From: Bacteroidota bacterium
Lineage (GTDB): Bacteria; Bacteroidota; Rhodothermia; Rhodothermales; JANQRZ01
Assembly (NCBI GenBank): GCA_038746285.1
Contig: JBCDKT010000002.1
Span: 1-64,000 of the forward strand
Direction: 5' to 3'
Length of the DNA stretch: 64,000 nt
Shown here piece by piece: positions 6,409-29,568 of this stretch; positions within the stretch are counted from its first letter, which is position 1; every line of letters begins with the position of its first letter. A model generated the notes under the pieces. That model did not search any database and was not told the origin of the DNA. It saw only the letters and a list, made by a program, of their open reading frames with translations. The translations under genes were made by a program, and so were the position numbers.

Positions 6409-8988
6409 TCACTCCTTCTCGCCACGTCGGTACCACAGCAGGCCAGCCATCAGGAGCGCGGCGAGGTAGACGAGCGCTGTGGCGAGCTGCGAGATCAGCA
6501 GGCCGAGTTCGTGGCGCGGCGGGTCGAACTGCATCGTGAGGATGTGCTTCCCGGCCGGGACGACGACGCCGCGCAGCAGGTGGTTGGCGCGGATGATCGG
6601 AACCCGCGCGTCGTCGAGCGTGGCGTACCAGCCGGCGGGGTAGTAGACTTCGCTCGCGACGAACAGGCGCGGCCGGTCGGTCTCGACCTGCCACACGATC
6701 TCGCGCGGCCCGAACCGACTCAGCTCCACCGAGGCCGTGCTCGCCGAGTCGATGGGCACGGGGGCGAGGGCCTCCGGCAGCGGCTCGGCCAGGAGCGCCG
6801 TCCGGCGGAGGTCGAGGCTCGGGTCGCGCAGCCGCTCGAAGGTCGCCTCGGGCCCCTCGACCACCTCGGTCTCTTCGACGAAGAAGGCGCGCGGCAGGAC
6901 GTCCGGGTTTTCGAGCACGACGAGGCCCGTCTGCTCGTCGCGGAACGCGACGCCGAGGCCGGGGACCGGCTGCCGGGCGACGACGTAGCGCGTGCTCAAG
7001 AGGTCCAGCCCGTTCTCGTTCAGCGACCCGTCGGGGTTGACAAGCAGGTGGTCCATGTAATCCTGGAAGAGCGCGAGCTTAGCCCCGTGGTAGCCCCCGA
7101 CCGACTCGTAGTGGTACGGCGTCCGCCCGTCGATGAACGGGTTCAGCGCGAGCGGGAGCGTGCGGAAGTTGCCCGGCCCGCCGGCCACGTCGATCCGCGC
7201 CTTGATGAACCGGTCGAACCCGTACTCGGGAATCTGCGCCTCGATGTCGCTCCGCGCCTTGAGCGAGGGTGACTCGGCGTTGTAGTACCGCTGCCCTACC
7301 TGCCACAGGTCGACCGTCACGAGCAGGATCAGTCCTACTTGCAGCGCCCAGGCCGGCACCGTCCGGCGGCGGTGGAGGATGAGCAGTACCGCCGCCAGCA
7401 GCAGGAAGAGCACCGAGCGCAGCGCATCGCTGGCGAAGAGGTCTCGCCGCTCCTCCCGCACCTCACGCAGCACCTGCTGCACGCGGGGATCGCCCGGGGC
7501 GATGTTCTGCTGCTGGGCCATCTGCTCGATCTGCGCCCGCTCCCCCGGCTTCTCGAACGAGAACAGCGCGCCGCCCCCCAGCCACAGCACGGCCAGGAGG
7601 ACCGAGGCCGACCCAAGCGCGACGTACACCGCCTTCGTCTTGCGTGCCTCGCTCTCCGGCGTGGCCTCGCGCCGGGCGAGGTAGTGCACCCCCGCGCCGG
7701 CCAGAAACGCCAGCAGGAGCACTACCACGATCAGCCACGTCTCGGGCACCCGGAACGCGTTGAAGAGCGGAAAGAAGTCAAACATCGGCCGGTTCAGAAG
7801 CGGGAAGTTCTCGCCGAGCGAGAAGAGGACCATCAGCCCCGCAGCGATGCCAGCGGCCCACACGATCCGGCGCCGCACACCCCAAAGCCCCATCCCGGCG
7901 AGCATGACCACTACTGCGCCGACGTAGTGGGGCCCCACCGTGAACGTCTTCGCGCCCCAGTAGGTCTGGCCGCCGCCGCCGTACGCGTTGGGAATGAGGA
8001 GCGTCGCAAGCTCGCCCCACCCCTGGCTCCAGCGCATCGCGTAGTCGTAGGCGAGACCACCGCTCTCCCCGGCCGCGCGGATCGTGAACGCCTTGTACTC
8101 GGCCTGGATGAGGTACGGGTGGGCGACCATCAGGAGCGCGAGGATGCTCCCCAGCGCGAGCGCCCCCGTCGAGGTAACGAACCCGCGCCCGGCCCCCTCC
8201 CGGAAGGCCGCGACGCCTCCCACAATCCAGGCAATGCCGATGGCGAACGCGACATAGTAGGTGATCTGGATATGACCAGCCCGTAGGTTGACTGCGAGGA
8301 CGATGGCAAAGAGCAGACTGCCAAGTAAGGTCTGCATCCACGTCGCGTCCGGCGGACGGCGGACGACGAATGCGTAGGCCAGCACGAGCCACGGCGCGAG
8401 GGCGAGGGCGATGAACTTGGAGGTGTGCCCCGCCACCAAGATGATCGGGATGTACGTCGTCAGGCCGAAGGCTACCGCCCCGAGCGTGGCAGCGAGGGTG
8501 TTGCGGAAGAGGTAGACGATGAGGAGGTACATCCCGGCGAGGAGCGCGAAGAAGTGCGCACCCGGCCACCAGCCGAGCTTGCGCAGCACACCCAGCACGT
8601 TGTCCGCCTGGAGCACCTGAATCGGGTAGGACACCATGAAGCTCGGCATCCCCGCGAACGCGTTCGTCGCCCAGAGTGCGTCTTGGCCGGTCTCCTCGCG
8701 GTGCTCGATCACCGACTCTGCCATCCCGCGCCACTTCACGATATCGCCCCCAACGAGAGTCTGGCCGCCGAACGTCGTCGAGGCGAAGAAGCCGAGCGTG
8801 ACCGCGAGCAGAAAGGCGAGGCAGACTGCGTGGCGCACCCAGGGCGAGAGCCGGTCCCAGGCGGTCCGGTGCAAGACGGTCCCGGACGCCCGCACCTTCG
8901 CTGCGCGCGCCTTGCCGTGCTCCGGCTTCGGGGTGGACGCGTCGCCGGAGGGGCGCTTTCGCTTGCCCCTGACGTTCTTCTTTGCCAT
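6409..8988 (-). CDS. YfhO-family multi-spanning membrane protein
   Basis: 859 residues from the ATG at 8986-8988 (MAKKNVRGKRKRP, a basic cytoplasmic N-terminus); an earlier in-frame start at 9036 only adds 16 residues with no conservation I recognise. About a dozen hydrophobic segments occupy residues 50-560, with the GT-C-like pattern GGDIVKWRGMAESVIEHREETGQDALWATNAFAGMPSFM after the first helix. A soluble region then leads to a beta-rich domain ending in PAGWYATLDDARVPIIRANHLLRGVVVPAGKH, the YfhO signature. In Firmicutes YfhO glycosylates lipoteichoic acid; in Bacteroidota relatives a role in surface glycosylation is inferred. One helix returns at the very C-terminus. Confidence 0.88.
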   Translation of the reverse strand: MAKKNVRGKRKRPSGDASTPKPEHGKARAAKVRASGTVLHRTAWDRLSPWVRHAVCLAFLLAVTLGFFASTTFGGQTLVGGDIVKWRGMAESVIEHREETGQDALWATNAFAGMPSFMVSYPIQVLQADNVLGVLRKLGWWPGAHFFALLAGMYLLIVYLFRNTLAATLGAVAFGLTTYIPIILVAGHTSKFIALALAPWLVLAYAFVVRRPPDATWMQTLLGSLLFAIVLAVNLRAGHIQITYYVAFAIGIAWIVGGVAAFREGAGRGFVTSTGALALGSILALLMVAHPYLIQAEYKAFTIRAAGESGGLAYDYAMRWSQGWGELATLLIPNAYGGGGQTYWGAKTFTVGPHYVGAVVVMLAGMGLWGVRRRIVWAAGIAAGLMVLFSLGENFPLLNRPMFDFFPLFNAFRVPETWLIVVVLLLAFLAGAGVHYLARREATPESEARKTKAVYVALGSASVLLAVLWLGGGALFSFEKPGERAQIEQMAQQQNIAPGDPRVQQVLREVREERRDLFASDALRSVLFLLLAAVLLILHRRRTVPAWALQVGLILLVTVDLWQVGQRYYNAESPSLKARSDIEAQIPEYGFDRFIKARIDVAGGPGNFRTLPLALNPFIDGRTPYHYESVGGYHGAKLALFQDYMDHLLVNPDGSLNENGLDLLSTRYVVARQPVPGLGVAFRDEQTGLVVLENPDVLPRAFFVEETEVVEGPEATFERLRDPSLDLRRTALLAEPLPEALAPVPIDSASTASVELSRFGPREIVWQVETDRPRLFVASEVYYPAGWYATLDDARVPIIRANHLLRGVVVPAGKHILTMQFDPPRHELGLLISQLATALVYLAALLMAGLLWYRRGEKE

Positions 8989-15011: not shown

Positions 15012-16346
15012 TCAGTCCATGTCGTCCCCGTTGATCAGCCGGAGGTCCTCGCCAGCTCCCGGCTTGAAGCGGTCGAGGCGGCGCTGCACGTCCTGGCGCT
15101 CCTGCTGGTAGAGGTCCGTCGGGAAGGGAAGCTCGGCCCGGGCGCGCAGCGGGTCCATGACGCGCGCCTGGAGCGCGATCAGGAGCTCCTTCTGGTTGGT
15201 CGTCGTCGTGTTGAAGGAGAACAGGTACTTGACGAGCGGGATGTCTTTCAGGATCGGCACCCCCTTGCGCGAGACCGTCTCCTCGGTCGAGAACAGGCCG
15301 CCGATGACGGTCTGCTCGCCGTCGAGCAGGAGCACCTGCGTGTCGGTCGAGTTCTTGTCGATCGTGATGCCGGACTGGGTGACGCGGCCCGCGCTCTTCT
15401 CGACGTTCACGTCGAGGTGGATGAACTCCACCGGGGGCGCGTCCGGGTTGTCGCGCGCGTCCGACGCGTCGGAGATCAGCGTCGGCGTCACGTCGATGAT
15501 GACGCCGGTGGCGATGTACTGCGTGACGGTGTTGCCGGCGAAGTCCTGGAGCGTGACCGGAATGTCGGAGCCGCTCTGGATCTGCCCCTTCTCGCCGCTC
15601 TGGACTGCGACGCTCGGGCTGGCAATCGTCTCGCCGACGTCGATCGACTCGAAGTAGCGGAACAGGGTCACGATCTCCCTGAAGTCGACCTGGTCGGGGC
15701 CGACGAGGAACTCATTGAACGAGTCGAAGAACGAGTCCGTTCTGAGGAAGAACTGCAGGCCGGCCACGTTCCCCTGGGCTGCGGCCCCGCCACCGCCACC
15801 GCCACCCGCGTTCTCACCGAAGATCGTCGCCCAGTTGGTGCCCGTCTCGCGGAGCCGGGTCACGTTGAGCTCGAAGATGTAGGCGTCGATGCGGATCTCG
15901 CGCGAGAGGGCCGTGGCGGGCGGGACCGCGTCGGCACCCGCCGCCCGCGCCGTCGCGCCGTCGGCGACGATCTGCACGAGGTCGTCCTCCAGCGTCTCGA
16001 TGATGAAGTAGTCCTCCGTCTCGCGGAAGCCTAGGCGGTGCCGGTCCAGCACCACCTCGAACGCGTCCACGAAGTGCATCCCCGACAGGCTGACCCCGAT
16101 GGGCATGTTCCGGTCCTCCGGGTCGATGATCTGCTTCCCGGTCACGTTCAAGAAGATCGGGTTGAGCAGCGAGACGAACTCGCCGAACGGGGTCCCCGGC
16201 AGAAACGAGACGATCTGGTCCGGCGGGATGTAGGTCCGAAGCTGACGCTGGTTCGGGACCGGGTCCACGCTCTGGGCGTGCGCCGCTGGGAGGGCGCTCC
16301 AGGTGCAAGCCAGAACCAGCAGAGGGATGAGCGGGTGGCGTTTCAT
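15012..16346 (-). CDS. pilQ: Secretin of the pilus/type II-like system (PilQ/GspD superfamily)
   Basis: 444 residues with signal peptide (LVLACTWSALPAAHAQ). A short periplasmic domain (about 40-125, FVSLLNPIFLNVTGKQIIDPEDRNMPIGVSL) precedes the secretin domain, which shows EIRIDAYIFELNVTRLRETGTNWAT, a poly-Gly loop (GENAGGGGGGGAAAQGN), GETIASPSVAVQSGEKGQIQSGSDIPV, and the end VIGGLFSTEETVSRKGVPILKDIPLVKYLFSFN...KELLIALQARVM. It should form the multimeric outer-membrane gate through which the pilus emerges. It is shorter than most PilQ proteins, with fewer N domains and no AMIN domain. It is the last gene of the pilus locus, followed by a terminator. Confidence 0.85.
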   Translation of the reverse strand: MKRHPLIPLLVLACTWSALPAAHAQSVDPVPNQRQLRTYIPPDQIVSFLPGTPFGEFVSLLNPIFLNVTGKQIIDPEDRNMPIGVSLSGMHFVDAFEVVLDRHRLGFRETEDYFIIETLEDDLVQIVADGATARAAGADAVPPATALSREIRIDAYIFELNVTRLRETGTNWATIFGENAGGGGGGGAAAQGNVAGLQFFLRTDSFFDSFNEFLVGPDQVDFREIVTLFRYFESIDVGETIASPSVAVQSGEKGQIQSGSDIPVTLQDFAGNTVTQYIATGVIIDVTPTLISDASDARDNPDAPPVEFIHLDVNVEKSAGRVTQSGITIDKNSTDTQVLLLDGEQTVIGGLFSTEETVSRKGVPILKDIPLVKYLFSFNTTTTNQKELLIALQARVMDPLRARAELPFPTDLYQQERQDVQRRLDRFKPGAGEDLRLINGDDMD

Positions 16347-16403: not shown

Positions 16404-17426
16404 TCAGTTAGAGCGCGCGGCCTGGGCGGCGGCACGGCGGGCTTCGGGCGTGCCCGGGGCTGGTGGGGCCACGAGGGGCGGCGCGCCGCTGAGCGGGGCG
16501 AGCCGGGAGTTGCCCAGCGCTTGCCGGTAGCGCTCGCCGGTGGGCAGGTGAACCTCTACCCGCTCGCGGATGCCGCCCTTGTTCAGGTCGGCCACCACGC
16601 GGGCATCGTTGGGGTCCACGCGGGTGATGGAGCCGAGGTACACCCGGTCTCCGACGCGGACCGGGCGCGGCCCGAGCTCGTCGCGGAACACCGCGACCTG
16701 TCCGATGACAGAGATGAGCGAGTCGCCCTCGACGTCGACTAGGTTGTCCGAGTTGGGCGGGAGGTCGTCCAGGATGAGCGGGTAGAACGGGTTCGACGGC
16801 AGCGTCCGGGCCGGGAGTACGTAGTCCGGCACGACGACGACCGAGTCGGGGGCGCTCATCCCTTCCGCGCCAGCGAAGTAGGCGCTGACGCTCATCGAGA
16901 ACTCGACGATGTCCTCGCGCCGGTCGACGCCGGTCTCGAGGTTCTCCTCGCGGACCGTGATGGCTTCCACGTCGAGGTTGCGGACGCGGTAGAGGCCTCG
17001 GCCGTTTTCCAGGTTCCAGATGAAGCCGTAGAGGCTGTCGAAATAGCCCTGTCCCTGGATGTTGTAGGACAGCGTGCTGAACGCGCCGTTGCGCGCGAGC
17101 CCTGCCAGGGTGATGTCGAACACCTTGAAGCCGCCTTCGGAGAGCGAGTTCAGGTAGTTGACGACGGCCGGGGAGGTCAGATTCTCGGGCAGCACCTTGT
17201 ACCGGGAGTTCCAGCGGCGCAGTGCGGTCTCCGCGCGCTCGGCGGAGCCCGCCTTCTCCACGAGGAGCTCCTCCACCTCGGCTTTGCGCAGGCGGAGCGC
17301 GGTCTCTTCCTGCTCGAGGCGCTCCATCCGCTCCGGCTGCTTCTTCTGGGTCACGTAGACTCCGAACCCGACCACGAGGGCGAGGACGACGGAGAGCACG
17401 AGGGTGTTGAGGGCGTCGTTAGACAT
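16404..17426 (-). CDS. PilO-like pilus alignment protein with PilP-like C-terminus
   Basis: 340 residues. One transmembrane helix (about 8-26, TLVLSVVLALVVGFGVYVTQ) is followed by a coiled coil (about 30-65) and a ferredoxin-like region, the layout of PilO. The C-terminal third (GDSLISVIGQVAVFRDELGPRPVRVGDRVYLGSITRVDPNDARVVADLNKGGIRERVEVHLP) resembles the small beta domain of PilP/GspC that docks on the secretin. The Pro/Ala-rich end is probably disordered. No separate PilP gene exists in the locus, so this protein may do both jobs. It lies between the PilM-PilN fusion gene and the secretin gene, with about 55 bp on either side. Confidence 0.65.
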   Translation of the reverse strand: MSNDALNTLVLSVVLALVVGFGVYVTQKKQPERMERLEQEETALRLRKAEVEELLVEKAGSAERAETALRRWNSRYKVLPENLTSPAVVNYLNSLSEGGFKVFDITLAGLARNGAFSTLSYNIQGQGYFDSLYGFIWNLENGRGLYRVRNLDVEAITVREENLETGVDRREDIVEFSMSVSAYFAGAEGMSAPDSVVVVPDYVLPARTLPSNPFYPLILDDLPPNSDNLVDVEGDSLISVIGQVAVFRDELGPRPVRVGDRVYLGSITRVDPNDARVVADLNKGGIRERVEVHLPTGERYRQALGNSRLAPLSGAPPLVAPPAPGTPEARRAAAQAARSN

Positions 17427-17479: not shown

Positions 17480-19525
17480 CTAGCTGCCGGCCGAAGCGGA
17501 ATCGACATCGTAGTCGCGGAGGGGGTCTCCGCCTTCGGGCTCCAGCGGCTGCTGGTCGGCGTCCGACACCTGGGCCTGCTCGCGGAGGTAGCGCGCCACC
17601 TCCGGCAGTTCCTCCTGGACGATGGTCTCGAGCGCGAAGGTGTAGACCGGGTACTCGCGGATCTGGCTGAAGGCGAGTTCCTCGATGGAGCCTTCCATGC
17701 GCTCGGCGAACTGGACCACCTGGTTCCGGCTCGTGGCGGAGCCGGCGAGCTGTAGACCGAGTGGGCTGGGGGTCGCCGAGGTGACCCACACGCCGCCGCT
17801 CGACGCCGAAGCGCTCGACAGGCGGGCGAGGCCGCGGCTCCACTTGTCACTGCCTACCAGCAGCGAGTCGATGGTGTTGAGCGTGCTGTTGATGCGGAGG
17901 TAAGCGTTCTGGAGACTGTCGATCTGGGCCTGGAGCGCCGGGCCGGAGAGGTCGATCTCGTCCGGGTAGGCGTCCACGCGCGCTTGGACCTCGGCCAGCT
18001 CCCCCTGCTGGCTGAAATAGAGCCCAACAAAGAACAGCACCGAGAAGAAGAGCAGCACGCCAGCGACGAGCGTATGCCAGGCCACCGAGACATTCAGCTT
18101 CCGGCGGCGCTTCCGCAGCCGCTTCGGCAGCATGTTGACCTCGTAGAACGGCGAGTCTTTCTTGCGCTCCATGATCGTGCGCAGCGCCATGCCGATGGCC
18201 GGCACCGTCTGGGCCAGCAGACCCACCTCGGCACCGGGAGGGGCCACGCCGCGCTCGACGAGCCCGCCGCGCAAGGCCCCGACTTGGGCGTCGGGGTAGA
18301 AGGCCCCAAAACCTTGCACCAGCTCGCTCTCGCGCTCGCCGCTGAGCACGACCACGTTGTGCACCGTGCCGACGCCCTGCACGTCCTGCTGCAGCAGCAC
18401 GCGGCTGCAAATCGTGTCCGGCCCGTCGAACGTCGAGACGTTGCGCATGTGCTCGACGTGGTGCAGCGTGTCGCCCTGGAGCAGGATGACGAGCGTGTCC
18501 TCGGTGCCGACGCGGACGATGGCCGTGTTCTCGTGCGGCTCGATGGCGAACGCCCACCGTGTGAGGCCGACGAGGATCGGCACCTCGGCGTCGATGGCGC
18601 GGAAGGGGACGGACCGCATCCCGGTCTGCTCGCGGAGCAGTTCCAGCGACTCGGCGAGCGACTCTTCGGGCGACGGCACGACAGCGAGGAAGCGCTGCAG
18701 CCCGTCGCGCGGCGTCATCGGGAGGAAGGCCGCGCGCTCTTTCTCGAACGGGCTCTCGTACGCCTCCTCGAGCCGGGCCAGCAGCTTGTCGCGCTTGACG
18801 ACGGGAAAGTCAGGTGATGCCGAGGCCGCGGTCTCCTCTTCCTTGGCAGCCGCTTTCTTTTTCTTTCCCTTTTTCTCCTTCTCCGGCTGCTCCTTCTTCT
18901 CCTTAGCAAGGACCAGCTCGACGTACTCGACGTCGGGCTGGCTGAGGCAGAAAGCGGTCGGGGGCCTCTCATGGCCGGACGCTTCGCACTCGTCCAGGAT
19001 GTCCTTCAATTCGAAGACGACCGGGGTAGTCTGCTTCTTCGGGGACTGCGCCTGGAAGTCTGCGTCGGGGGCCTCGATGCCTTTGAGGTCGCTGAACTCG
19101 GAGTCCAGGAAGAGGTCCTGCGGGTCCAGCCCTGCGGAGGCATCGCCGAACTGGACTGTGATGTCGTCGTCGGCGGCACCGGCCTCGCCTTCCGGGGTGA
19201 TGCCTGCCAGGTCGGGTACCTCGCCGTCGAACACGCTGCGCTGCCGCGTGAACGGGCGCAGCACGCCGTAGCGGTCGCCTGCCTCGCGCACGAGGATGCC
19301 GTGCACGGCGTCGGGCGTGACGTAGACACCGAGGACCGGCGCGCTCGCACTGCGGCGGCGGCGCTCCGCCTTCGGCTTGCTCGGGGCTGCCTCCTTCTCG
19401 GTCTCGGCAGGCTCGGGGACGACCGGGGTCGGCTCGACGCCGCTCGGCTCCTCGGGGACGCGCTCCTCGAAGGGGCTAGCGTCAGACCCGAAGTGCGTCT
19501 GCATGGAGTCGGGGAGCTTCTTCAT
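17480..19525 (-). CDS. PilM-PilN fusion protein
   Basis: 681 residues combining two normally separate proteins. After a disordered Pro/Glu-rich N-terminus, residues about 60-470 carry the actin-like PilM fold (ASAPVLGVYVTPDAVHGILV, FAIEPHENTAIVRVGTEDTLVILLQGDTLHHVEHM, GTVHNVVVLSGERESELVQGF), broken by a Lys/Glu-rich insertion (about 208-232). At about 470 the PilN motif NMLPKRLRKRRRKLN begins, followed by a transmembrane helix, a coiled coil (GELAEVQARVDAYPDEIDL) and the ferredoxin-like PilN domain (GGVWVTSATPSPLGLQLAGSATSRNQVVQFAERME). In canonical systems cytoplasmic PilM grips the first residues of PilN; here that contact is built into one chain. The C-terminus is acidic. Confidence 0.8.
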   Translation of the reverse strand: MKKLPDSMQTHFGSDASPFEERVPEEPSGVEPTPVVPEPAETEKEAAPSKPKAERRRRSASAPVLGVYVTPDAVHGILVREAGDRYGVLRPFTRQRSVFDGEVPDLAGITPEGEAGAADDDITVQFGDASAGLDPQDLFLDSEFSDLKGIEAPDADFQAQSPKKQTTPVVFELKDILDECEASGHERPPTAFCLSQPDVEYVELVLAKEKKEQPEKEKKGKKKKAAAKEEETAASASPDFPVVKRDKLLARLEEAYESPFEKERAAFLPMTPRDGLQRFLAVVPSPEESLAESLELLREQTGMRSVPFRAIDAEVPILVGLTRWAFAIEPHENTAIVRVGTEDTLVILLQGDTLHHVEHMRNVSTFDGPDTICSRVLLQQDVQGVGTVHNVVVLSGERESELVQGFGAFYPDAQVGALRGGLVERGVAPPGAEVGLLAQTVPAIGMALRTIMERKKDSPFYEVNMLPKRLRKRRRKLNVSVAWHTLVAGVLLFFSVLFFVGLYFSQQGELAEVQARVDAYPDEIDLSGPALQAQIDSLQNAYLRINSTLNTIDSLLVGSDKWSRGLARLSSASASSGGVWVTSATPSPLGLQLAGSATSRNQVVQFAERMEGSIEELAFSQIREYPVYTFALETIVQEELPEVARYLREQAQVSDADQQPLEPEGGDPLRDYDVDSASAGS

Positions 19526-19603: not shown

Positions 19604-20911
19604 TTACTGAATGAGCTGCTGGAGGCGCCGCTTGTTGTTGGCGAAGTTGATCGCAGTTTCGGGCGCGATCTTCCGTTCCTTAAGCAGGCGCACCAAGTCC
19701 TGCTCCAGGGTGACCATCCCGAGGCGCCCGCCCTCCCAGATCATCTGGTAGATCTCGCCGACGTTCTCGTTTTTGATCGCGGCGCGCACCGAGGGTGTGA
19801 TCCAGAGCACCTCTTTGCAGAGCACGCGCCCGCCGCCGACTTTGGGCAGGAGCTTCTGCGAAACCACGCACCGGAGGGTGTCCGCGAGGCGGTTGCGCAC
19901 GCGGTCCTGCTCCTCGTGGGGGTACTCGGCGATCATGCGGTCGAGGCTCTCGATGGCACTCGACGTGTGGAGCGTCGAGAACACCTTGTGGCCGGAGTCG
20001 GCCGCTTCGAGCGCGCTGGAGATGGTCTCCGGGTCGCGCATCTCGCCGACGACGATGATGTCCGGGTCCTGCCGGAGCGACTGCACGATGCCGTCCTTGA
20101 ACGACCCCACGTCCTGTCCCACCTCGCGGTGGCGGACGATGCAGTGCTTCGGGGTATGCATGTACTCGATGGGCTTGGCGATGATGACGATGTGCCCGGA
20201 AAAGCTCTCGTTGTTGGCGTCCACGACCGCGTCGAGCGTAGTGCTCTTGCCCGAGCCCGTGACGCCGGTGACGAGCGTCAGCCCGTCGCGGACGTGCTCG
20301 AACATCAGCCCCCGCTCGATCGCCGGGTGGAAGCCGACGCTCTTGAGCGGCCTCAACTCCTGCGCGATCGCGCGCATGCAGAGCCCGAGGTGCTGGTAGT
20401 CGAAGTACATCGTCGCCCGGAAGCGGAACATGCCCTCGTCGCCTTCGAGCTGGTACGAGAAGTCGATGGCCCCCTGCTCGAACAGCTCATTCTGCTGCAT
20501 CTCTCCCGCCATGTTGAGCAGGAGCACGTCGATCTCGTCGCTGTTGATCGTCCCGGTCTCGTCGTAGGGCCGCTTGTCGCCGTCGACGCGGTACCAGACG
20601 CGGCCGGAGGTGGCGTGCCCGCCCAGGTCCATGTCTGAGGCCCCCAGCGGGTTCATCTTCGCGATAAAGCGGTCCAGGTAGTCCCCCAGCGCGTCGCGCT
20701 GTTCGTCGGTGAAGCGGTTGACGTGCTCCGAGTAGTAGCGGAGCCGGTCTTTGCCGTGGAGAGAGGACGGGGCCGAGCGGGCCAGCGACCGCACGAAGTC
20801 GGGGAGCCCCGGTGTCCGGGGCGTGCCCTTCCGCGGGTCCGGCGTGATGACGTCGGGGTGCTCCAGCGGCGGAGCATGGGCTAGCGAAGGAGTAGAAGGT
20901 GGGGGGTTCAC
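19604..20911 (-). CDS. pilT: PilT-like retraction ATPase
   Basis: 435 residues from a GTG at 20909-20911; the frame is open further upstream but contains no ATG after 21088 and the extra sequence looks non-coding. Walker A is GVTGSGKST (216-224), followed by the Asp-box region IVIIAKPIEYMHTPKHCIVRHREVG, Walker B IIVVGEMRDPET and the His box STLHTSSAIESLDRMI. The end of the core (EEQDRVRNRLADTLRCVVSQKLLPKVGGGRVLCKEVLWITPSVRAAI) matches PilT rather than PilB, with no tetracysteine. It would power pilus retraction. The N-terminal half is longer than in typical PilT. The 259-bp gap upstream contains a terminator. Confidence 0.82.
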   Translation of the reverse strand: MNPPPSTPSLAHAPPLEHPDVITPDPRKGTPRTPGLPDFVRSLARSAPSSLHGKDRLRYYSEHVNRFTDEQRDALGDYLDRFIAKMNPLGASDMDLGGHATSGRVWYRVDGDKRPYDETGTINSDEIDVLLLNMAGEMQQNELFEQGAIDFSYQLEGDEGMFRFRATMYFDYQHLGLCMRAIAQELRPLKSVGFHPAIERGLMFEHVRDGLTLVTGVTGSGKSTTLDAVVDANNESFSGHIVIIAKPIEYMHTPKHCIVRHREVGQDVGSFKDGIVQSLRQDPDIIVVGEMRDPETISSALEAADSGHKVFSTLHTSSAIESLDRMIAEYPHEEQDRVRNRLADTLRCVVSQKLLPKVGGGRVLCKEVLWITPSVRAAIKNENVGEIYQMIWEGGRLGMVTLEQDLVRLLKERKIAPETAINFANNKRRLQQLIQ

Positions 20912-21105
20912 GCCTGAAATTGGGAGGCTTAGGTTGGCACCGAAATGAGCATCTGTGCCTTGCTCAAAAGGTGAGCCAAAGCGCTCAGTGCACCTCAGCC
21001 CTCCGTCTGGACCTGTACCCCCGCCCCTGCCGGGCAATTCATACCGCCCCCGTGCACGAACTGTAACCCGAACCTGTCTCACACACAAACGCCTCCTTAC
21101 CTAAT

Positions 21106-21170: not shown

Positions 21171-22652
21171 CTAGCTGCCGCGGCAGACTTCGTAGGCGTC
21201 GTGGTTGTTCAGGTACCAGTTCACGCGGTCGGGCTTGAGGCAGACGATCCGCCTGCTGCCGTTTTTCTTCGCGCGTGACACGGCAACGGTCTTGTTGGGG
21301 CGGTCTCGGGGGCAGGCGCACTCGGCAGCTTCTTCACTGCCCTCGTCCTCCTCTCCACCTGCCGTCGCCTCACCCTCGTCTTCGCCTTCGTCCTCCTCGT
21401 CTTCGCCTTCTCCGTCGTCGTCTTCGCCCTCTCCGGCACCGCCTTCGTCGTCTTCGGTCTCGATGCCGCACAGCGAGAGGTCGTCCTCTTCGACGAGCTT
21501 GACCTCGATCACCTGGTCGCTGAAGTCAGGGCGGAAGCCCGTCCAACTGTTGCCGCCGGTGCTGCTGCGGTAGTGGTCTTCCAGGGTTCGGTAGCCCCAG
21601 CTGTCCTCGGTCGGCCAGCCCTCGCCGTCGTAGCCGAGGCGCTTGAGCGCCTGGAGGCTGCGCTCCGGGTTGTCGGAGTCCGGGTTGTCCCACTGCGGGT
21701 AGCGCAGGTCCTCGAAGGCGATGCGCCAGCGCTGCACGTCGTCGGGGCCGGTGTTGTTCACCCCGCTCGGGTGCATCTCGGTGAACGCCCACGGCGACTC
21801 GATCATGTCGCCCAAGCTGTTGGCGTTCTCTTCGAGCGCGTAGTGGAGGTGGTCGTACGGTGCCGGGTTGTCCATGTCGCCGTCGAAGATGGGCATGCTT
21901 TCCACCGGCGGGTTGCCGGTCGGGCGCGTGCTGCAGTTCTTGTCGACGGCGATGAAGAAGTTCATCTGCGTTCCGCCGGTCAGATACTTATCGATCGTCA
22001 GCGTGGTGCGGTCGCGGTTCTTGCCGGGGATGAAGAGCATCTCCGGGATCTCCGGCTCGGGGTTGACCACCGTAGAGTCCGGCAGCGTGCGCTCGAGGTA
22101 GATCGCCGAGCAGTAGCCTGCCTCGGACTGGATGAATTCCGTCTCCAGCTTGCTGCACTCGAGCTTGGCCGTCAGCGGGTCGCCGCTCGGCGGCTCGTAC
22201 TCGTAGAGCGGGCTGTCGTCGGCCATCTTGTGGCAGCCGCCGGTGTAGTACTCGCCGGAGAACTCGTCGGGCTCGGCGCACATGCCGGGGCCGGCTCCGT
22301 TGAGGTCCATGAACTCGCCGCCGAAGTAGCCCCGCGACGTGATGCGCACGGTATGGCCGTTTGCGAGCTCGGCGCGGGCGCGGAAGGTGCCACCCTGGTG
22401 CTGGCCCTCCAGGTACTTCCCGCCGCCGTGCTGGTTAACGGCGGCGATGCCCTCGTGGAGGTCGTTGCCGTACTCGCGCATGATGCCCATCGCGATGTTG
22501 AACCCGGAGCGCGCGATCTCGCGTGCGATCACGCTCTCTTCGAAGTTCGCCTGAGTTTTCGTGGTTTGGTGCTCAGATTCCTTCTGGCTGAGCATGCCTT
22601 GCGCGATGAACAGCGACGCGCCGAAGGCTATGAGTAGGGCTGCCTTTCCCAT
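21171..22652 (-). CDS. PilX-like pilus-associated protein with acidic low-complexity region
   Basis: 493 residues. One N-terminal hydrophobic helix (MGKAALLIAFGASLFIAQG) followed by a helical stretch KTQANFEESVIAREIARSGFNIAMGIMREYG looks like the spine of a minor pilin or PilX-type assembly protein. The large exposed part contains several Cys and no enzymatic motif I recognise. Residues about 403-455 are a run of Glu, Asp and Gly, after which a compact Cys/Arg-containing tail (AECACPRDRPNKTVAVSRAKKNGSRR...) ends the protein. There is no canonical prepilin cleavage site. It lies with two other minor-pilin-like genes upstream and is followed by a strong terminator. Confidence 0.6.
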   Translation of the reverse strand: MGKAALLIAFGASLFIAQGMLSQKESEHQTTKTQANFEESVIAREIARSGFNIAMGIMREYGNDLHEGIAAVNQHGGGKYLEGQHQGGTFRARAELANGHTVRITSRGYFGGEFMDLNGAGPGMCAEPDEFSGEYYTGGCHKMADDSPLYEYEPPSGDPLTAKLECSKLETEFIQSEAGYCSAIYLERTLPDSTVVNPEPEIPEMLFIPGKNRDRTTLTIDKYLTGGTQMNFFIAVDKNCSTRPTGNPPVESMPIFDGDMDNPAPYDHLHYALEENANSLGDMIESPWAFTEMHPSGVNNTGPDDVQRWRIAFEDLRYPQWDNPDSDNPERSLQALKRLGYDGEGWPTEDSWGYRTLEDHYRSSTGGNSWTGFRPDFSDQVIEVKLVEEDDLSLCGIETEDDEGGAGEGEDDDGEGEDEEDEGEDEGEATAGGEEDEGSEEAAECACPRDRPNKTVAVSRAKKNGSRRIVCLKPDRVNWYLNNHDAYEVCRGS

Positions 22653-22705: not shown

Positions 22706-23431
22706 CTAGCCCCAGAAGGGCCGCACTTTCAGCGTCGTCGTCCAGTAGAGTTCGCGGAGGTAGTTCTGCCGGAGCTCGAACTCGGGCACCATCGAGAAGT
22801 CTACCCGGACGTAGCTCGCTTGGTCGGGCGCAACCGGGTCGCTGTCAGCAAACAGGTTGCCGTCGTTGTCGAGAAGCTGGATGCGGAACTGGGAGAGCGT
22901 GGAAACACTACGCCCGTCCTCGGTAAAGTCGGCGAGGGTAAAACCGACGAGGTCTGTAACGGGGTCGACGGCCTTCCATATAGACTGCGTCCGCACGAGC
23001 TGGAAGGCGGGGCGGGTGTAGGTCGAGCCGTCGCTCAGCTCTACCTCGATCGAGTCCGGCTGCACGACGACCAAGTAGCGCGTCGCCTGGCGCTGCTTGG
23101 CCGCTCCTACGAACCGGTCGCTGAAGAAGCGCCATTCCTTCGTGTAGGTCATCGTCCGGGTCTGCTTAGCACCGAACTCGTCGATGAACTGGACGGCGAA
23201 CGAGTCCGGCATCGGGTTGCCGAAGCGTGCGCTGTTGTCGACGATGTTCTCGCCGAGGGCGACGATGTCCTGGTCCACCCACTGCCCGAGCGATAGCGCC
23301 TTGCTCTTCGCCGCGTGCGACGAGACCTGCGCCATTCCAGTCTCCTGGACCCGGAACTGCGTAGCCACCATCGAGAAGAACAGCGTGGTGACGATGATCG
23401 TCGTGACGATATGGTCGAGGATGAATGCCAT
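22706..23431 (-). CDS. Minor-pilin-like protein (PilW-like position)
   Basis: 241 residues. An N-terminal hydrophobic segment (ILDHIVTTIIVTTLFFSMVATQ) continues into a helix (FRVQETGMAQVSSHAAKSKALSLGQWVDQDIVALGENI) and then a beta-rich globular part (WRFFSDRFVGAAKQRQATRYLVVVQPDSIEVEL...). This pseudopilin-like shape and the position between two other short-helix proteins suggest a minor pilin, but the Gly-Phe-Thr-Leu-x-Glu motif is missing. It follows the next upstream gene by 57 bp and precedes the 493-residue protein gene by 53 bp, so the three are probably one operon. Confidence 0.55.
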   Translation of the reverse strand: MAFILDHIVTTIIVTTLFFSMVATQFRVQETGMAQVSSHAAKSKALSLGQWVDQDIVALGENIVDNSARFGNPMPDSFAVQFIDEFGAKQTRTMTYTKEWRFFSDRFVGAAKQRQATRYLVVVQPDSIEVELSDGSTYTRPAFQLVRTQSIWKAVDPVTDLVGFTLADFTEDGRSVSTLSQFRIQLLDNDGNLFADSDPVAPDQASYVRVDFSMVPEFELRQNYLRELYWTTTLKVRPFWG

Positions 23432-23488: not shown

Positions 23489-24112
23489 CTAGCGTAGTGT
23501 GGAGCAGGTGGCGATGATGTCGTCGTCGTTGACCCCGTTGTTGTGGCGGATGCAGTCTGCGGTGGCCTTCTCGGCGTCGTACGCGATGATGCGTTCGAGG
23601 CTAATGAAGGTGCTGTCCCTGGGCAGCAGCGACGTGCGGGCTGCCAGGATGACCCGCTTGGTCGACGTGGGGCCGCCGATCGGCACGTCGGGCGCAGCCC
23701 CGTCGACGTAGTCGACCTGCACCTCGATCTCGAACGGCAGCGAGTATCCGTTGCTCAACTCGACATCGGCAGGCCACCAGTAATCGGGGCGCGAGAAGTC
23801 GTCGAGGTCGTTGCATTCGGACAGGTCGACGTCGAACAGGTCGCAGTTCTCCTCCCCGCCGCCGTACCCAACCGAGCCGAAGTCCGACACGGCCGGCAGG
23901 CCGCCGGAGCCGATGATGCTCCCCGGCGACGACGAGGCGTCGTAGGGCCGCGCGGCCAGGAGCTCCATCGCCTCCATCATCATGCCCGAGGCGGCTACGC
24001 TGAACTCGTTGCGGAGCTGGTTCTCGTAGGACCGCACCGTCACCTGCTGCTGGCTGAAGGTGAGCTGCGCGAGAATGGCGAGGGCGAGGAGGCCGAGAAG
24101 CGTCTGCGGCAT
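23489..24112 (-). CDS. Minor-pilin-like protein (PilV-like position)
   Basis: 207 residues. A hydrophobic N-terminus (TLLGLLALAILAQLTFSQQQ) runs into a helix (RSYENQLRNEFSVAASGMMMEAMELLAARPYD), then a Gly/Ser/Asp-rich exposed domain with three Cys pairs possible (NCDLFDVDLSEC, DCIRHN...ATCSTLR). The phrase AMELLAARPYDASSSPG recalls PilV/GspI-type pilins (ARPYD/T). No canonical prepilin peptidase site is present. It is the first of three similar genes, 236 bp downstream of pilB; that gap includes a TATAAC box but no firm promoter. Confidence 0.55.
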   Translation of the reverse strand: MPQTLLGLLALAILAQLTFSQQQVTVRSYENQLRNEFSVAASGMMMEAMELLAARPYDASSSPGSIIGSGGLPAVSDFGSVGYGGGEENCDLFDVDLSECNDLDDFSRPDYWWPADVELSNGYSLPFEIEVQVDYVDGAAPDVPIGGPTSTKRVILAARTSLLPRDSTFISLERIIAYDAEKATADCIRHNNGVNDDDIIATCSTLR

Positions 24113-24348: not shown

Positions 24349-26403
24349 CTACGCCTCGCCCGCTGTCACGCGGAGCATTTCCTCCAGGCTCGTTTCTCCC
24401 ATCCGCACCAGTTCGCGTGCCGAGGCCTGCAGCGTGAGCATGCCCTCCTCCACCGCCTTGTCGCGGATGCCGTCCTCGTCAATCGTCTCGCCCGCGTCGA
24501 CGATCAGTTCGCGGATGCCGGGCGAAAAGTACAGGGCCTCGGCCACGGCGCGGCGCCCCTTGTAGTTTCTCCCTTTGCATGTGGAGCAGCCCTTGTCGTG
24601 GCCCGGACCGTGGAACTCGATGTCCTCGATGTCCTCCTTGCTGAAGCCTAGCTGCTCAGCCAGGAGGGCGTCCACTTCTTCGACCTTTTTGCAGTCCGGG
24701 CAGAGGGTCCGCATCAGGCGCTGCGCCACGACGAGGTTGATCGCGTAGGCGATCAGGAACGGCTCCAGACCCATCTTGTAAAGCCGGCTGACGGCGCTCG
24801 GGGCGTCGTTCGTGTGGAGCGTGGAGAACGTGAGGTGGCCCGTGTTGGCGAGCTTCACACCGAGTTCCGCCGTCGCCTTGTCGCGCATCTCGCCGACCAT
24901 GACGATGTCTGGGTCGTGGCGCAGGATGGCGCGGAGGGCTGCCTCGAGCGAGAGCTTGTGCGAGATCTGGATCTGGCGGACGCCGGGGATCATGTACTCC
25001 ACCGGGTCCTCGACGGTGAGCACGTTCACCTCGGGGCTGACGACCTGGCTGAGCGCGGCCACGAGCGTCGTGGACTTGCCCGAGCCGGTCGGCCCGGTCA
25101 GGATCACCATGCCGTTGGGCTGGCGGATGGCCTTGTTGAACTGCTCCAGCGCGAAGGGCAGCAGGCCGAGCTTGGCGAGGTCGGTGAGCACCTTGCGGTC
25201 GTCGAGCACGCGGATGACGATGCTCTCGGCGCGCACGTCGGGGTTGGCGTTGGCAATCGGGAGGACCGAGACGCGGTAGCGGATGAGCGTGTCGTCCACC
25301 CAGCGCTGGATGAAGCCGTCCTGGGCCGTGTCGCGCTCGAAGCGGTCGACGTTGATGGCGTTGTCCTTGAGGACGGCCAGGAGCGCCTCGGGGTGGCCTT
25401 TCTCCTCGGTGTGCCAGTGCTGGAGCCGCCCGTCGAGCCGGAAGTGGATTTCGGTCTTGCGGTTCGCGTTCGGGTAGATGTGGATGTCCGAGACCCCGAG
25501 CCGGACGGACTCGATGAGGACGGCCTCGACGAGGTTGATTAGCGCGCTGCGGCTGATCTCGGCTTCGAGGGCCTCTTCGTCGAGCAGCGAATTCTCCTTG
25601 TTCCCGAAGCTCGTGCCGAGGTCGAACGCGGAGTCGTCGTCGCTGTCGCGGATGCGTTCGAGGTACTCGTTCTTCCGGGGATAGGCCTCGTCGAGCACCT
25701 TGCGCACCGCCGCGCGCGGCGCGTAGTACAGCTCGAAGCGCTCGAGCTCCATCGCGTGCATGACCCGCAAGAGGTCCGGCCGCATCGGGTCGTCGGTGAC
25801 GAAGACCAGCTTGTGCATCCCTGAGCCCTGGTCCTGGACATACCCGTAGGGCGCAACGCGGAGGGCGAGGAGCTCCTCGCGGGCGCTTTCCTTGAGAGCG
25901 TCCATCACCGTCTTGACAAACTCGACCTCAGGCGGTCGGTCCTCGATCGGCGCGGCGCGGAAGGCGTAGGTGAGCGCTGCCTGCTGGTAGACCAGGTCGC
26001 GGTCCACCTCTGGGCTCTCGGCGAGCACGCGCCACAGGGGCTCCTTGCGCTGATCGCGCTGCTTGACCTCGGTCGCCTCGGCCACGGCCGCCTCGGAGAC
26101 GACGCCCCGGCCCAGCAAGCCCTGCACCACGCGGTCCTGCCCCTGGCCGGTGTACGGCGTCTTCGGTCCGGGGGCCGGCCCTGGCGGGGTCATGCCATCT
26201 CCACCAGGCGAGGCCTCCTCTTGGATCTCGTTGAGGCTGCTCAGCCCGGACCCGGGCACCTCGTCGGGGGGAGCCGGGGAAGGCGAGCCCAGGTTGTTCA
26301 GCGAGACCCAGCCTTCTTCGCCAGCCTCGCTCTCCACCATCGACTGTACGCGGAACCCGTGTGCCCGGAGCGAGCTGTCATCAGGTGGCTTCTGGTCGGG
26401 CAT
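24349..26403 (-). CDS. pilB: PilB/GspE-type pilus assembly ATPase
   Basis: 684 residues from the ATG at 26401-26403 (MPDQKPPDDSS); the frame is open further upstream but the sequence there is not conserved. A disordered Pro-rich N-terminus and an MshEN-like region (about 75-150, VVQGLLGRGVVSEAAVAEA) precede the ATPase. Walker A is GPTGSGKST (437-445), Walker B IVMVGEMRD, His box STLHTNDAPSAVSRLYKMG. The tetracysteine zinc site is CPDC...CSTC (LCPDCKKVEEVDALL ... GCSTCKGRNYKGRRAV), diagnostic of extension ATPases. It powers pilin polymerisation together with PilC. A terminator-like hairpin lies between pilC and this gene. Confidence 0.92.
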   Translation of the reverse strand: MPDQKPPDDSSLRAHGFRVQSMVESEAGEEGWVSLNNLGSPSPAPPDEVPGSGLSSLNEIQEEASPGGDGMTPPGPAPGPKTPYTGQGQDRVVQGLLGRGVVSEAAVAEATEVKQRDQRKEPLWRVLAESPEVDRDLVYQQAALTYAFRAAPIEDRPPEVEFVKTVMDALKESAREELLALRVAPYGYVQDQGSGMHKLVFVTDDPMRPDLLRVMHAMELERFELYYAPRAAVRKVLDEAYPRKNEYLERIRDSDDDSAFDLGTSFGNKENSLLDEEALEAEISRSALINLVEAVLIESVRLGVSDIHIYPNANRKTEIHFRLDGRLQHWHTEEKGHPEALLAVLKDNAINVDRFERDTAQDGFIQRWVDDTLIRYRVSVLPIANANPDVRAESIVIRVLDDRKVLTDLAKLGLLPFALEQFNKAIRQPNGMVILTGPTGSGKSTTLVAALSQVVSPEVNVLTVEDPVEYMIPGVRQIQISHKLSLEAALRAILRHDPDIVMVGEMRDKATAELGVKLANTGHLTFSTLHTNDAPSAVSRLYKMGLEPFLIAYAINLVVAQRLMRTLCPDCKKVEEVDALLAEQLGFSKEDIEDIEFHGPGHDKGCSTCKGRNYKGRRAVAEALYFSPGIRELIVDAGETIDEDGIRDKAVEEGMLTLQASARELVRMGETSLEEMLRVTAGEA

Positions 26404-26523
26404 GAGTGTCGGATGGAGGGGCGGAAGGCGCTGCGGCGAGGCAGCCTTTAGATCGACTGTACTATCGGCAAACCCGCGCCTTCTCTTTACAGGGTCGTCG
26501 CGGTTTCTTGGCGCGTGGGGGAC

Positions 26524-26564
26524 CATAAACGGGGCGCGTGGGTGGCTCAGGCCCACACGCCCCG
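26524..26564 (-). terminator. Terminator-like hairpin between pilC and pilB
   Basis: A 13-bp stem with one mismatch (26552-26564 with 26530-26542) is followed by TTTATGG on the minus strand, 33 bases after the pilC stop. It probably lowers readthrough into pilB. Confidence 0.65.
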
Positions 26565-26596: not shown

Positions 26597-27949
26597 TTAC
26601 TGTCCCATGAGGTCGGTGGAGCTGGGCCGGATCAGTGCGGTCTCGGCCGAGAGCACCGTCAGGAGCGCGACGATGATGCCGATGAAGAGCGAGACGGCCG
26701 TCTGGATCGACTGCAGCGCCACTTCGAGCTTCAGCGAGGTCTCTTTCTCGTAGTAGTCCGCCATCTGCTGCGCGCTCTTACGGACGGCCCCGGTCTCGGA
26801 GCCGGTGCGGAAGCGCGCGAGCGCCATCGGCGTGAAGACGTTGGCGGCCTCCATCGCCCGGACGAGGTCGGCCCCTTGCGCCACCATCATCGGGATCGTG
26901 ATGGTCTTGACCTGGTGCTCCATGTACGTGTTGCCACAGGCTTCGGCGGCCACCTTGATGACCTCGATGTTCTGCCCGCTGCCGGAGTAGAGGATGGCGA
27001 AGACGCGGCTGAAGACCTCGATGTTGAGCTTGTGCAGGAGCGAGCCCATGATGGGCATCCGGATCATGTTCTTGTGCGCCCAGAACGTGCCCTTCGGGCT
27101 TCGGAGCCACAGCACGAGCGCGCCAACGACGACGCCGGTAATCAGCAGGAGCCAGATCATGTTCTCGTCGAGCCAGTCGGCCATGAGGATCGAGAACGCC
27201 GTCAGCGGCGGCAGCTCGATGCCGTCGAAGTCGGCGAAGAGTCCGGCGGTGGCCGGGACGATGAACCAGATGTACCAGACGAAGACGCCGAGCGTGGCGA
27301 GGATCGTCACCGAGGGCATGATCATCGAGCTGCGCACGCTCTTTTTGAACTCGTCGCGCCGCTCGAGGAACTTGGCCGTAGCCTCGTAGATCTCGCTCAT
27401 ATTACCGGACTGCGAGGCCACGCCGAGCATGTAAGCCGTGAACTGGCCGAGCTTGTCCTGGTGCTTCATGAAGGCCTGCCGCGCCTCCACCCCGCCCTTC
27501 AGGTCAGAGTTGATGTCCCGGATCGTCTGCTTGAGACTGGCCGAGGAGATATCGGCCACGAGGAGGTTGAGCACCTCGTTGAAGGGCATCTTCTCGTTGA
27601 GCAGGTTGGCCGCGAGCCGGACGAACATGATGACGTCCCCGCTCGGCGGCTTGCGCTGCACGTTGAAGAGCTTCTTCTGGACCGAGAGCACCTCCATCCC
27701 CATGCGCGACAGGGCGGACTCGATCTCCTCGGACGAGAAGGCTTTCTGCTCGCCGGTGACGACCTTGCCGGTCGGGTGCTTGATCTTGTAGCGGAAGAAC
27801 ACCCGCTCGTCGAGGTCGCGCAGGGTGAACTTGTGGCGCTCGGCCAGGTCGGCGACTTTCTTCTGCGCGGTCCGCTTGTTCGGGGCGTAGACGGTGCCCT
27901 GCACCGGCTGGCCGGCGGCACTCAGGCCGTTGAATCTGAACTCTCCCAT
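26597..27949 (-). CDS. pilC: PilC/GspF inner-membrane platform protein
   Basis: 450 residues. Two GspF repeats are visible: the first contains FVRLAANLLNEKMPFNEVLNLLVADISSASLKQTIRDINSDLKGGVEARQAFMKHQDKLGQFTAYMLGVASQSGNMSEIYEA, the second SRVFAILYSGSGQNIEVIKVAAEACGNTYMEHQVKTITIPMMVAQGADLVRAMEAANVFTPMALARFRTGSETGAV. Three hydrophobic segments lie where expected (about 215-240, 270-290 and 415-440). The protein anchors the pilus base and couples PilB rotation to pilin insertion. It is preceded by the pilin-like gene and a GC-rich hairpin, and followed by pilB. Confidence 0.92.
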   Translation of the reverse strand: MGEFRFNGLSAAGQPVQGTVYAPNKRTAQKKVADLAERHKFTLRDLDERVFFRYKIKHPTGKVVTGEQKAFSSEEIESALSRMGMEVLSVQKKLFNVQRKPPSGDVIMFVRLAANLLNEKMPFNEVLNLLVADISSASLKQTIRDINSDLKGGVEARQAFMKHQDKLGQFTAYMLGVASQSGNMSEIYEATAKFLERRDEFKKSVRSSMIMPSVTILATLGVFVWYIWFIVPATAGLFADFDGIELPPLTAFSILMADWLDENMIWLLLITGVVVGALVLWLRSPKGTFWAHKNMIRMPIMGSLLHKLNIEVFSRVFAILYSGSGQNIEVIKVAAEACGNTYMEHQVKTITIPMMVAQGADLVRAMEAANVFTPMALARFRTGSETGAVRKSAQQMADYYEKETSLKLEVALQSIQTAVSLFIGIIVALLTVLSAETALIRPSSTDLMGQ

Positions 27950-28007: not shown

Positions 28008-28418
28008 TTAGTTCATGGTGATCGAGCTGTCGTAGGCGATGACAGTCCGCTTGATCTCGTACTGGTCGACCATGACGCGCACCCCGATGTCCGGATAGCG
28101 CGAGCTGACGGCCGTGATCTCGACGGAGTCGGGCCACGCTCCGGTAATGTCGAAGGAGCCCCGCACCGTCGCCGTGTCGAGCGCGAGCTGCTCCATGCCG
28201 TTCGAGGCGAGCGCTGCGTACGACTGGTTGCCGCCGGCAAAGGGGTCGTTCTTCGTCTTCCAGTACACGGCCTGCGTGGCGATCGCAAGCGAGCGGTCTA
28301 GGAGGCCGTCGGCCTCATCCTGCCGGGTATACTTCTGCACGGCCGAGATGCCGGCGATCACTGCGAAGCCCACGAGGATGATTCCGATCACGAGAAGAAG
28401 GAGTTGCTGTTGTCCCAT
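28008..28418 (-). CDS. Pilin-like protein with MGQQQLLLLV N-terminus
   Basis: 136 residues. The N-terminus MGQQQLLLLVIGIILVGFAVIAGI is almost the same as that of the 154-residue protein encoded 686 bp upstream, and a helix (SAVQKYTRQDEADGLLDRSLAIATQAVYWKTKN) and small beta domain follow. Shape, size and placement directly before pilC indicate a structural pilin or pseudopilin. The basic leader and Glu at +5 of classical type IV prepilins are absent; cleavage, if any, would have to follow MG. No ribosome-binding site is obvious upstream. The 590-bp leader region is described separately. Confidence 0.65.
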   Translation of the reverse strand: MGQQQLLLLVIGIILVGFAVIAGISAVQKYTRQDEADGLLDRSLAIATQAVYWKTKNDPFAGGNQSYAALASNGMEQLALDTATVRGSFDITGAWPDSVEITAVSSRYPDIGVRVMVDQYEIKRTVIAYDSSITMN

Positions 28419-29009
28419 GCTTGTCTGTCCCGGGGTATCGGCCTGCGGCGGAGAAAATCAACCGAACCGGGTCCCTTTTGTGATTGAGGTCTGCACGTCC
28501 CGCCCTACGCGGTGCCGGCGGGACGATGACACCAGAGGGGCAAGTTCATTGCCATCGCAGGCCACGGGGCCGGGAGGTGCCGCTCTCTGCTTCCGAAGAC
28601 CAAAAAATCGAGACAGATCCGCGGTCTGTACCGCGCGTTTACCACCGAGGTGAAGCCCGCGCGCCCTGTTTGCCGGGGTTAAGCGAAAGCACGGCAGGGG
28701 AGCCCCCCGCCTCCGGCGTTCCCTCTCTCTCAACCCGGCAGTAAATCAACCCGGAGGCAGAACAGTACGCCACGCCATCTCGGAGCGCTGCGTCGCATGC
28801 CCGCCGGCAGGCTGCCCCGGACTGCACTTCGGCAGCGGCCTGCGTTCCGGTACCTCGTGCTGTGGTGCGGTCTCGTGCCGGTCCTTACGCCGCGGGCAGC
28901 CAGCGGCCGGGCTAGTCTTTCCTCGCGCGCAGTTCCAGGTCCGTCGCTGTGCCCCCGGTGACGTCGCCGCCACCGCATCGCTGCCGTGCCCCAGGCTGCG
29001 CGGCGTGCC
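28419..29009 (-). other. Long non-coding leader between the two pilin-like genes
   Basis: No convincing gene lies in these 590 bases on either strand. Read leftward it has many possible stems, for example GCGCGCGGGCTTCACC ... GGTAAACGCGCG near 28631-28664 (the top-strand complements pair within CGCGCG arms), a Gly-tetraloop-like GCGAAAGC at 28682-28689, and, near 28613-28629, a 5-bp ACAGA/TCTGT hairpin followed by six T (28602-28607 as A on the plus strand). This could be a small RNA or an attenuated 5' UTR of the 136-residue pilin-like gene. I could not match it to a known riboswitch class. Confidence 0.35.
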
Positions 29010-29015
29010 CCACAC

Positions 29016-29098
29016 AAAAAGGCGACATCCCCGCCGAGCCGAAGCCCGACAGAGATGCCGCCAAGGTGTGCCGAGCCCGAAGGCTGGCGTCATGTCGC
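29016..29098 (-). terminator. Multibranched terminator of the upstream pilin-like gene
   Basis: Five bases after the stop codon the minus-strand transcript can form an outer stem GCGACAT/ATGTCGC (29092-29098 with 29022-29028) enclosing two small hairpins, each with a UUCG tetraloop (AGCC-UUCG-GGCU and GGGC-UUCG-GCUC), followed by TTTTT. The compact fold would both stop transcription and protect an abundant pilin mRNA. Confidence 0.65.
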
Positions 29099-29103
29099 TA
29101 CGC

Positions 29104-29568
29104 TTAGAGCGTGCACTCCGAGGCGTTCGGGTTGCTCGGGTTGGACGGCTCCGTCGTACCGATGGCCGTCGCGATGCACTCGGGGTCGGTGCCGAAGACG
29201 CCCACCTTCACGAAGTTGCTCAGGCTGCTGCTGTCCTGCGCCGTGATGATGGCCGAGCTGGACGACGCTTCGAGCTGGAACCCACCGTTGAGGTTGGTGT
29301 AGCGCTCGTTGGCACCGGTGCCGTCGGTCTCGTAGCCGAGCTGCGCCAGCGTGAGGCCGGTCATGCCGGAGACGTTGGCACCGCCACCGAAGGCGGCTGG
29401 CTTGAGCTTCCACGCCTGGGTGTCAGAGGCGATGCGGATGGCATCGTTGACGAGGGCGTCGGAGTTAGCCTTTTTCTGGTTCTCGCCGAAAGCCTGGATA
29501 CCGACGACGACGGCGAGGCCGACGATCACGATACCGAGGACGAGGAGGAGAAGTTGCTGCTGACCCAT
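29104..29568 (-). CDS. Pilin-like protein, probable major subunit of the locus
   Basis: 154 residues. MGQQQLLLLVLGIVIVGLAVVVGI is followed by a polar helix (QAFGENQKKANSDALVNDAIRIASDTQAWKLKP) and a Gly/Ser/Thr-rich beta domain ending with two cysteines (ECIATAIG ... ASECTL) that could form the C-terminal disulphide loop seen in pilins. The start is supported by an AGAGAGG ribosome-binding site about 6-8 bases upstream (29574-29580 on the plus strand). It is the first gene of the leftward pilus locus and has its own strong terminator, fitting a highly expressed major subunit. The canonical prepilin motif is lacking. Confidence 0.68.
   Translation of the reverse strand: MGQQQLLLLVLGIVIVGLAVVVGIQAFGENQKKANSDALVNDAIRIASDTQAWKLKPAAFGGGANVSGMTGLTLAQLGYETDGTGANERYTNLNGGFQLEASSSSAIITAQDSSSLSNFVKVGVFGTDPECIATAIGTTEPSNPSNPNASECTL

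Follow-up and report, generated by a model that had tools for sequence, protein, structure and literature searches.

Clipping of a leader peptide is, in textbooks, a universal step in the making of type IV pili. Canonical prepilins carry a basic leader that gives the subunit its N-in topology and is removed before assembly, and the subunits dock by a bridge from Glu5 to the amine (PMC10191384, PMC4471445); reviews place both the prepilin peptidase and the class III leader in the conserved core of type IV filaments (PMC4471445, PMC10191384). The question raised by the pilus locus described here, within a window of 64,000 nucleotides (the whole stretch of DNA that was analysed), is how a filament could be built from subunits that have no such leader. 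A sequence-only reading had proposed pilin-like subunits without a prepilin site in a genome possibly lacking PilD, a proposal that searches of the genome and of the phylum have upheld.

The two proteins in question are encoded on the (-) strand, both from an ATG and both beginning MGQQQLLLLV, as the earlier reading had reported. The first, a leaderless major-pilin candidate (pilin 1), lies at 29104..29568 (154 residues, MGQQQLLLLVLGIVIVGLAVVVGIQAF, with two Cys near the C-terminus), and the second leaderless pilin (pilin 2) at 28008..28418 (136 residues, MGQQQLLLLVIGIILVGFAV). Their first 24 residues had been called almost the same, which slightly overstates the likeness: residues 1-10 are identical and only 18 of the 24 match. 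Many synonymous codon differences fall within the stretch common to both, which shows that it is kept at the protein level. The nearest in-frame stop lies 4 sense codons upstream of the start at 29104-29568 and 13 upstream of that at 28008-28418, and no ATG, GTG, TTG, CTG or ATT occurs between stop and start in either case. A hidden classical leader, read from an upstream in-frame start, is thereby excluded, and the claim that these proteins have neither basic leader nor prepilin site stands. Neither they nor their relatives have a class III signal peptide (a hydrophilic leader with Gly or Ala at -1). Glu at position 5, a usual if not universal pilin trait, is missing as well, and Leu occupies that position in the registers given by weak alignments. 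Residues 1-27 are uncharged in 106 of 116 homologous ORFs. No Rfam element was found around the two genes, and neither product matches a Pfam or NCBIfam family at curated cut-offs. The body region of the alignment holds a possible common signature, roughly KP...GGG..(S)F.GLT....NG.(F/Y).I, which could define the family in databases.

The two MGQQQ proteins stand at the head of a T4aP-type locus in which PilC, PilB, three minor-pilin-like proteins, PilT, a PilM/N-like fusion, a PilO-like protein and PilQ follow downstream on the same (-) strand. The PilC/GspF platform protein (26597..27949; T2SSF E=1.7e-29, GspF/PilC 1e-45) also occurs together with the pilins in relatives, and is followed by the PilB assembly ATPase (24349..26556; T2SSE 2.8e-94, TIGR02538 PilB 4.8e-114). 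Beyond the minor-pilin-like genes lie a PilT-family retraction ATPase (19604..21088), whose 324.1 bits against TIGR01420 exceed the curated cut-off of 319.1, and a protein at 17480..19525 in which PilM and PilN seem to be fused; a profile of 7 homologues of the latter matches PilN (3jc8) at 1.2e-9, and position and length point to its PilM part. The PilO-like protein with a C-terminal extension (16404..17426) is assigned from synteny and from a weak match of its ortholog in locus L052 to Pfam PilO (E=0.027), and the PilQ secretin (15012..16346) from Secretin (5.2e-30) and TIGR02515 PilQ (1.3e-26). T4aP machinery is thus represented by an assembly ATPase, a platform protein, a secretin, PilM/N/O and PilT, with the PilO and PilM parts weak. 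At 340 residues the PilO-like protein is long, and the resemblance of its C-terminal half (VGDRVYLGSITRVD...) to a PilP/GspC-type domain suggests a PilO-PilP fusion. A second leaderless pilus locus is found on another contig of the window's genome (L055, G000:C59:1-20000), with an MGQQQLILLVLATVIVG pilin at 8432-8914 and with PilC, PilT, PilMN and minor-pilin-like proteins that include MGQYAVILTISAI; locus L057 is its counterpart in the same-genus relative G001.

The minor-pilin-like proteins A (23489..24112, MPQTLLGLLALAILAQLTF), B (22706..23431, MAFILDHIVTTII) and C (21171..22652, MGKAALLIAFGASLFIAQG, with a large Cys-containing body), all on the (-) strand, had likewise been described as leaderless. 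This is borne out by their starts at 24112, 23431 and 22652, each within a few residues of the hydrophobic helix, and comparison with relatives shows all three to be leaderless across the group. Protein A has [QED] immediately ahead of the hydrophobic run, and protein C mostly begins MG[KR] in relatives. In protein B residue 6 is acidic (+5 counted without Met), and it is an Asp in many genomes. In the classical pattern the tip subunit is the one without Glu5; an acid at +5 (Met gone) in minor pilin B and none in the major pilins is the reverse arrangement.

The fold predicted for the MGQQQ proteins is that of a pilin. An AlphaFold2 model of pilin 1 (88-sequence alignment, pLDDT 91.7) has a continuous helix at residues 3-55 followed by 5 strands. 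Foldseek returned no pilin among the PDB matches of this model, and for that reason pilin 2 was modelled too (50-sequence alignment, pLDDT 92.7), giving a continuous helix at 2-61 and then beta strands. Its best PDB match is the Thermus thermophilus pilin PilA4 (6xxd; prob 0.99, E 6e-3, TM 0.48/0.51, 126 columns), with Neisseria PilV lower in the match list. Both models show the N-terminal helix of some 53 residues, hydrophobic in its first half, and the antiparallel beta-sheet head expected of the fold, the Foldseek pilin match being that of pilin 2 only. Pilin profiles used as queries matched the PDB type IV pilins PilE1 and PilA5 weakly, and two homologues matched Pfam ComP_DUS. From the modelled helix and beta-sheet, together with the PilA4 match of the shorter protein, the MGQQQ proteins can very probably be counted as type IV pilins. 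The PDB alignments and a profile comparison with the canonical pilins of relatives, each of them weak, share a register in which residue 9 is mature +6, with Gln3 at -1, Gln4 at +1 and Leu8 at Glu5. The number of Cys residues is even in 37 of the 44 Cys-containing pilins among the 116 ORFs, consistent with an oxidising, extracytoplasmic head.

The MGQQQ start is no peculiarity of this genome. It occurs in 42 of 60 genomes of the same order, nearly all matches being aligned from residue 1, and in 128 of 395 genomes sampled across the phylum, and is therefore not a product of chance. Scanning 84,980 species with the motif as seed confirmed at least 435 loci, and the best 80 include records named Rhodothermales, Balneola, Fodinibius, Gracilimonas, Salinivenus, Roseithermus, candidate division KSB1 and Ignavibacteria; the range of the motif thus takes in Rhodothermales, Balneolales, Ignavibacteria and the candidate phylum KSB1. 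The earlier reading had called for a search for the motif next to PilC, and PilC was found in 78 of 98 loci, many of which are cut by contig ends. Among 116 homologous ORFs taken from the motif scan, an in-frame start further upstream is lacking in 112, and in 95 the frame ahead of the start stays open for at most 10 codons. The shared N-terminus is not an artefact of scanning for a motif, since an HMM search of 18 sampled genomes with no motif fixed gave 35 matches, every one of which has G[QST]QQ immediately behind the start residue (M in 33, V in one and L in one, the V and L standing for alternative start codons if these were translated literally). Several MGQQQ paralogues per genome are present in many carriers. 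In one two-contig genome a tandem pair lies on the second contig (G014:C2:9991-10997), possibly a plasmid.

The absence of a PilD-type peptidase, first remarked for the window, extends to the whole genome (96.6% complete): PF01478 found no match there, nor did PF07963 reveal a canonical N_methyl prepilin, control genomes being positive in both searches. The peptidase search rests on the A24 profile, and a peptidase unrelated to A24 lies outside its reach. Among the 60 same-order genomes PilD scores above the cut-off in only 6, one of which (G041) has no MGQQQ pilin; those of the sub-cut-off PF01478 matches in relatives that were read are other membrane proteins, such as permeases. Where their context was read, the PilD genes of relatives belong to classical loci of their own that encode canonical GF(S/T)LxEL-type prepilins; the one in G001 likewise lies in a separate locus, beside GFTLPELL prepilins.

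A dedicated A24 prepilin peptidase is undetected in 113 of the 128 carriers in the phylum sample and present in 15. N_methyl prepilins accompany PilD in 15/15 of the PilD-bearing carriers versus 2/113 of the PilD-less ones (Fisher p=1e-17). PilC proteins that are at least 53% identical track the MGQQQ pilin, and distant PilCs (21-25%) are confined to PilD-bearing genomes. In the closed, single-chromosome genome of Roseithermus sacchariphilus two MGQQQ loci are present and PilD and N_methyl are both absent; the named genomes of two Salinivenus and of three Fodinibius likewise have neither. In KSB1 genomes a PilD is often present as well, so that outside the phylum the peptidase is not always missing. 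The two PilD-less carriers with canonical N_methyl prepilins (G220:C4:443400-443818 and G130:C6:31832-31903) may hold classical systems in decay, or their peptidase may have been missed. About 30 genomes of family f27 in the same sample have an A24 peptidase, with no N_methyl prepilin or MGQQQ pilin detected.

Taken together, these observations make it likely that the two proteins are type IV pilins born in near-mature form, with no leader and no need of a prepilin peptidase, and that an ordinary T4aP-type machine assembles them with the three leaderless minor pilins. With no leader present, no cleavage would be required. The fresh N-terminus would only be deformylated and then, as Gly2 suits methionine aminopeptidase, trimmed of its Met. 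As a rule for the whole subunit set, such trimming is weakened by the bulky residues (Ile, Trp, Gln or Phe) at position 2 of minor pilin B in many genomes. The orienting role of the basic leader could be taken over by the alpha-amine, the sole charge ahead of the helix, facing a mostly acidic segment after it, and the subunit would insert N-in/C-out. The C-minus-N flank charge, taken over the 15 residues after the helix, is zero or negative in all 116 ORFs and negative in 109, which fits N-in insertion by the positive-inside rule. Docking would then rely on the conserved Gln-Gln-Gln at the start of the helix, a buried polar contact in place of Glu5 (replaced by Leu) and the amine of residue 1. 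Being polar, and leading a helix that is apolar in the rest of its length, the triad is the obvious candidate.

The sequence-only reading had left a choice between such an uncleaved N-terminus with another docking contact and a leader consisting of MG alone, which some other peptidase would remove after Gly2 to yield an otherwise classical pilin beginning QQQLLLL. Every pilin read does have Gly2, the 35 from the motif-free search among them, and canonical leaders end in Gly (PMC4471445). Yet published leaders have 6-26 residues (PMC4471445), and the MG start is lacking in minor pilins A and B. The lack of an A24 enzyme in so many carriers, and alignments that are weak and concordant in putting Gln3 rather than Gly2 at -1, favour the uncleaved N-terminus, and the MG leader is accordingly judged unlikely. 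Less probable still is a classical system with odd substrates whose peptidase, a highly divergent A24 or other intramembrane enzyme, was missed by the profile. Divergent members can escape such searches and metagenome-assembled genomes can be incomplete, but the same profile detects PilD in 12 of 14 controls and in some relatives, the Roseithermus genome is closed, and without a leader there is nothing to cut; this explanation has very little probability.

A further explanation, itself quite improbable, makes the MGQQQ proteins membrane-anchored accessories of the pilus machine, the true pilin then being the product of a gene elsewhere. It draws on the failure of Foldseek to match pilin 1 with a pilin and on the fact that the system is known from sequence, no filament having been seen. 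A canonical prepilin is absent, however, from 111 of the 113 PilD-less carriers, which leaves no other pilin candidate; the predicted fold of pilin 2 matches PilA4, and paralogues are multiple in many genomes, as major and minor pilins are. A PilD-independent branch of type IV filaments, as judged from sequences and predicted folds, remains the best reading of the system.

MSHA pilins have leaders. In this they differ from the MGQQQ pilins, as do their host genomes, which always carry a peptidase with another system, although MSHA loci resemble the MGQQQ loci in lacking the gene (Denise et al., PMC6668835, where the prepilin peptidase is a core component). The MGQQQ system is like T4aP in its PilB, PilC, PilT, PilM/N, PilO-like protein and PilQ secretin, in the predicted pilin fold and in having several minor pilins per locus; it differs in that its subunits all lack a class III signal peptide, its major pilins lack Glu5 and the genome lacks a prepilin peptidase, and in its conserved GQQQLLL start. 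The T2SS/T4aP-like system of Cytophaga hutchinsonii, from the same phylum-level group and with a similarly divergent T4aP-like core, encodes the Peptidase_A24 prepilin peptidase CHU_3197 in its locus (PMC5553014), unlike the MGQQQ system; neither a linked Peptidase_A24 nor classical pseudopilins of that type were found in the window or its genome. Archaeal pilins with class III signal peptides often lack Glu5 (PMC4471445), as the MGQQQ pilins do, but have leaders that are cut by archaeal A24 enzymes. No published account of the MGQQQ system, of leaderless pilins, or of Rhodothermus or Salinibacter pili bearing on it was found in the open literature (subscription journals and preprints being outside this scope). 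What would be new is a type IV filament without prepilin processing, the machinery itself being known.

Many bacteria of the Bacteroidota group thus appear to build type IV pili from leaderless subunits, most of their genomes lacking the clipping enzyme. It is fairly likely, if held with somewhat less confidence than the account of the two window proteins, that a widespread branch of type IV filaments dispenses with prepilin processing altogether, its (M)GQQQ subunits inserting and polymerising without leader, Glu5 or the N-methylation made by PilD. If so, neither leader removal nor the salt bridge between Glu5 and the amine would be universal for type IV assembly, and the failure of signature-based annotation to recognise these pilins would be explained. 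A clade that has the full machine but neither peptidase nor leader, in well over a hundred species, would then show which assembly steps are truly essential, and the role of leader cleavage and of Glu5 would become directly testable in natural "mutants".
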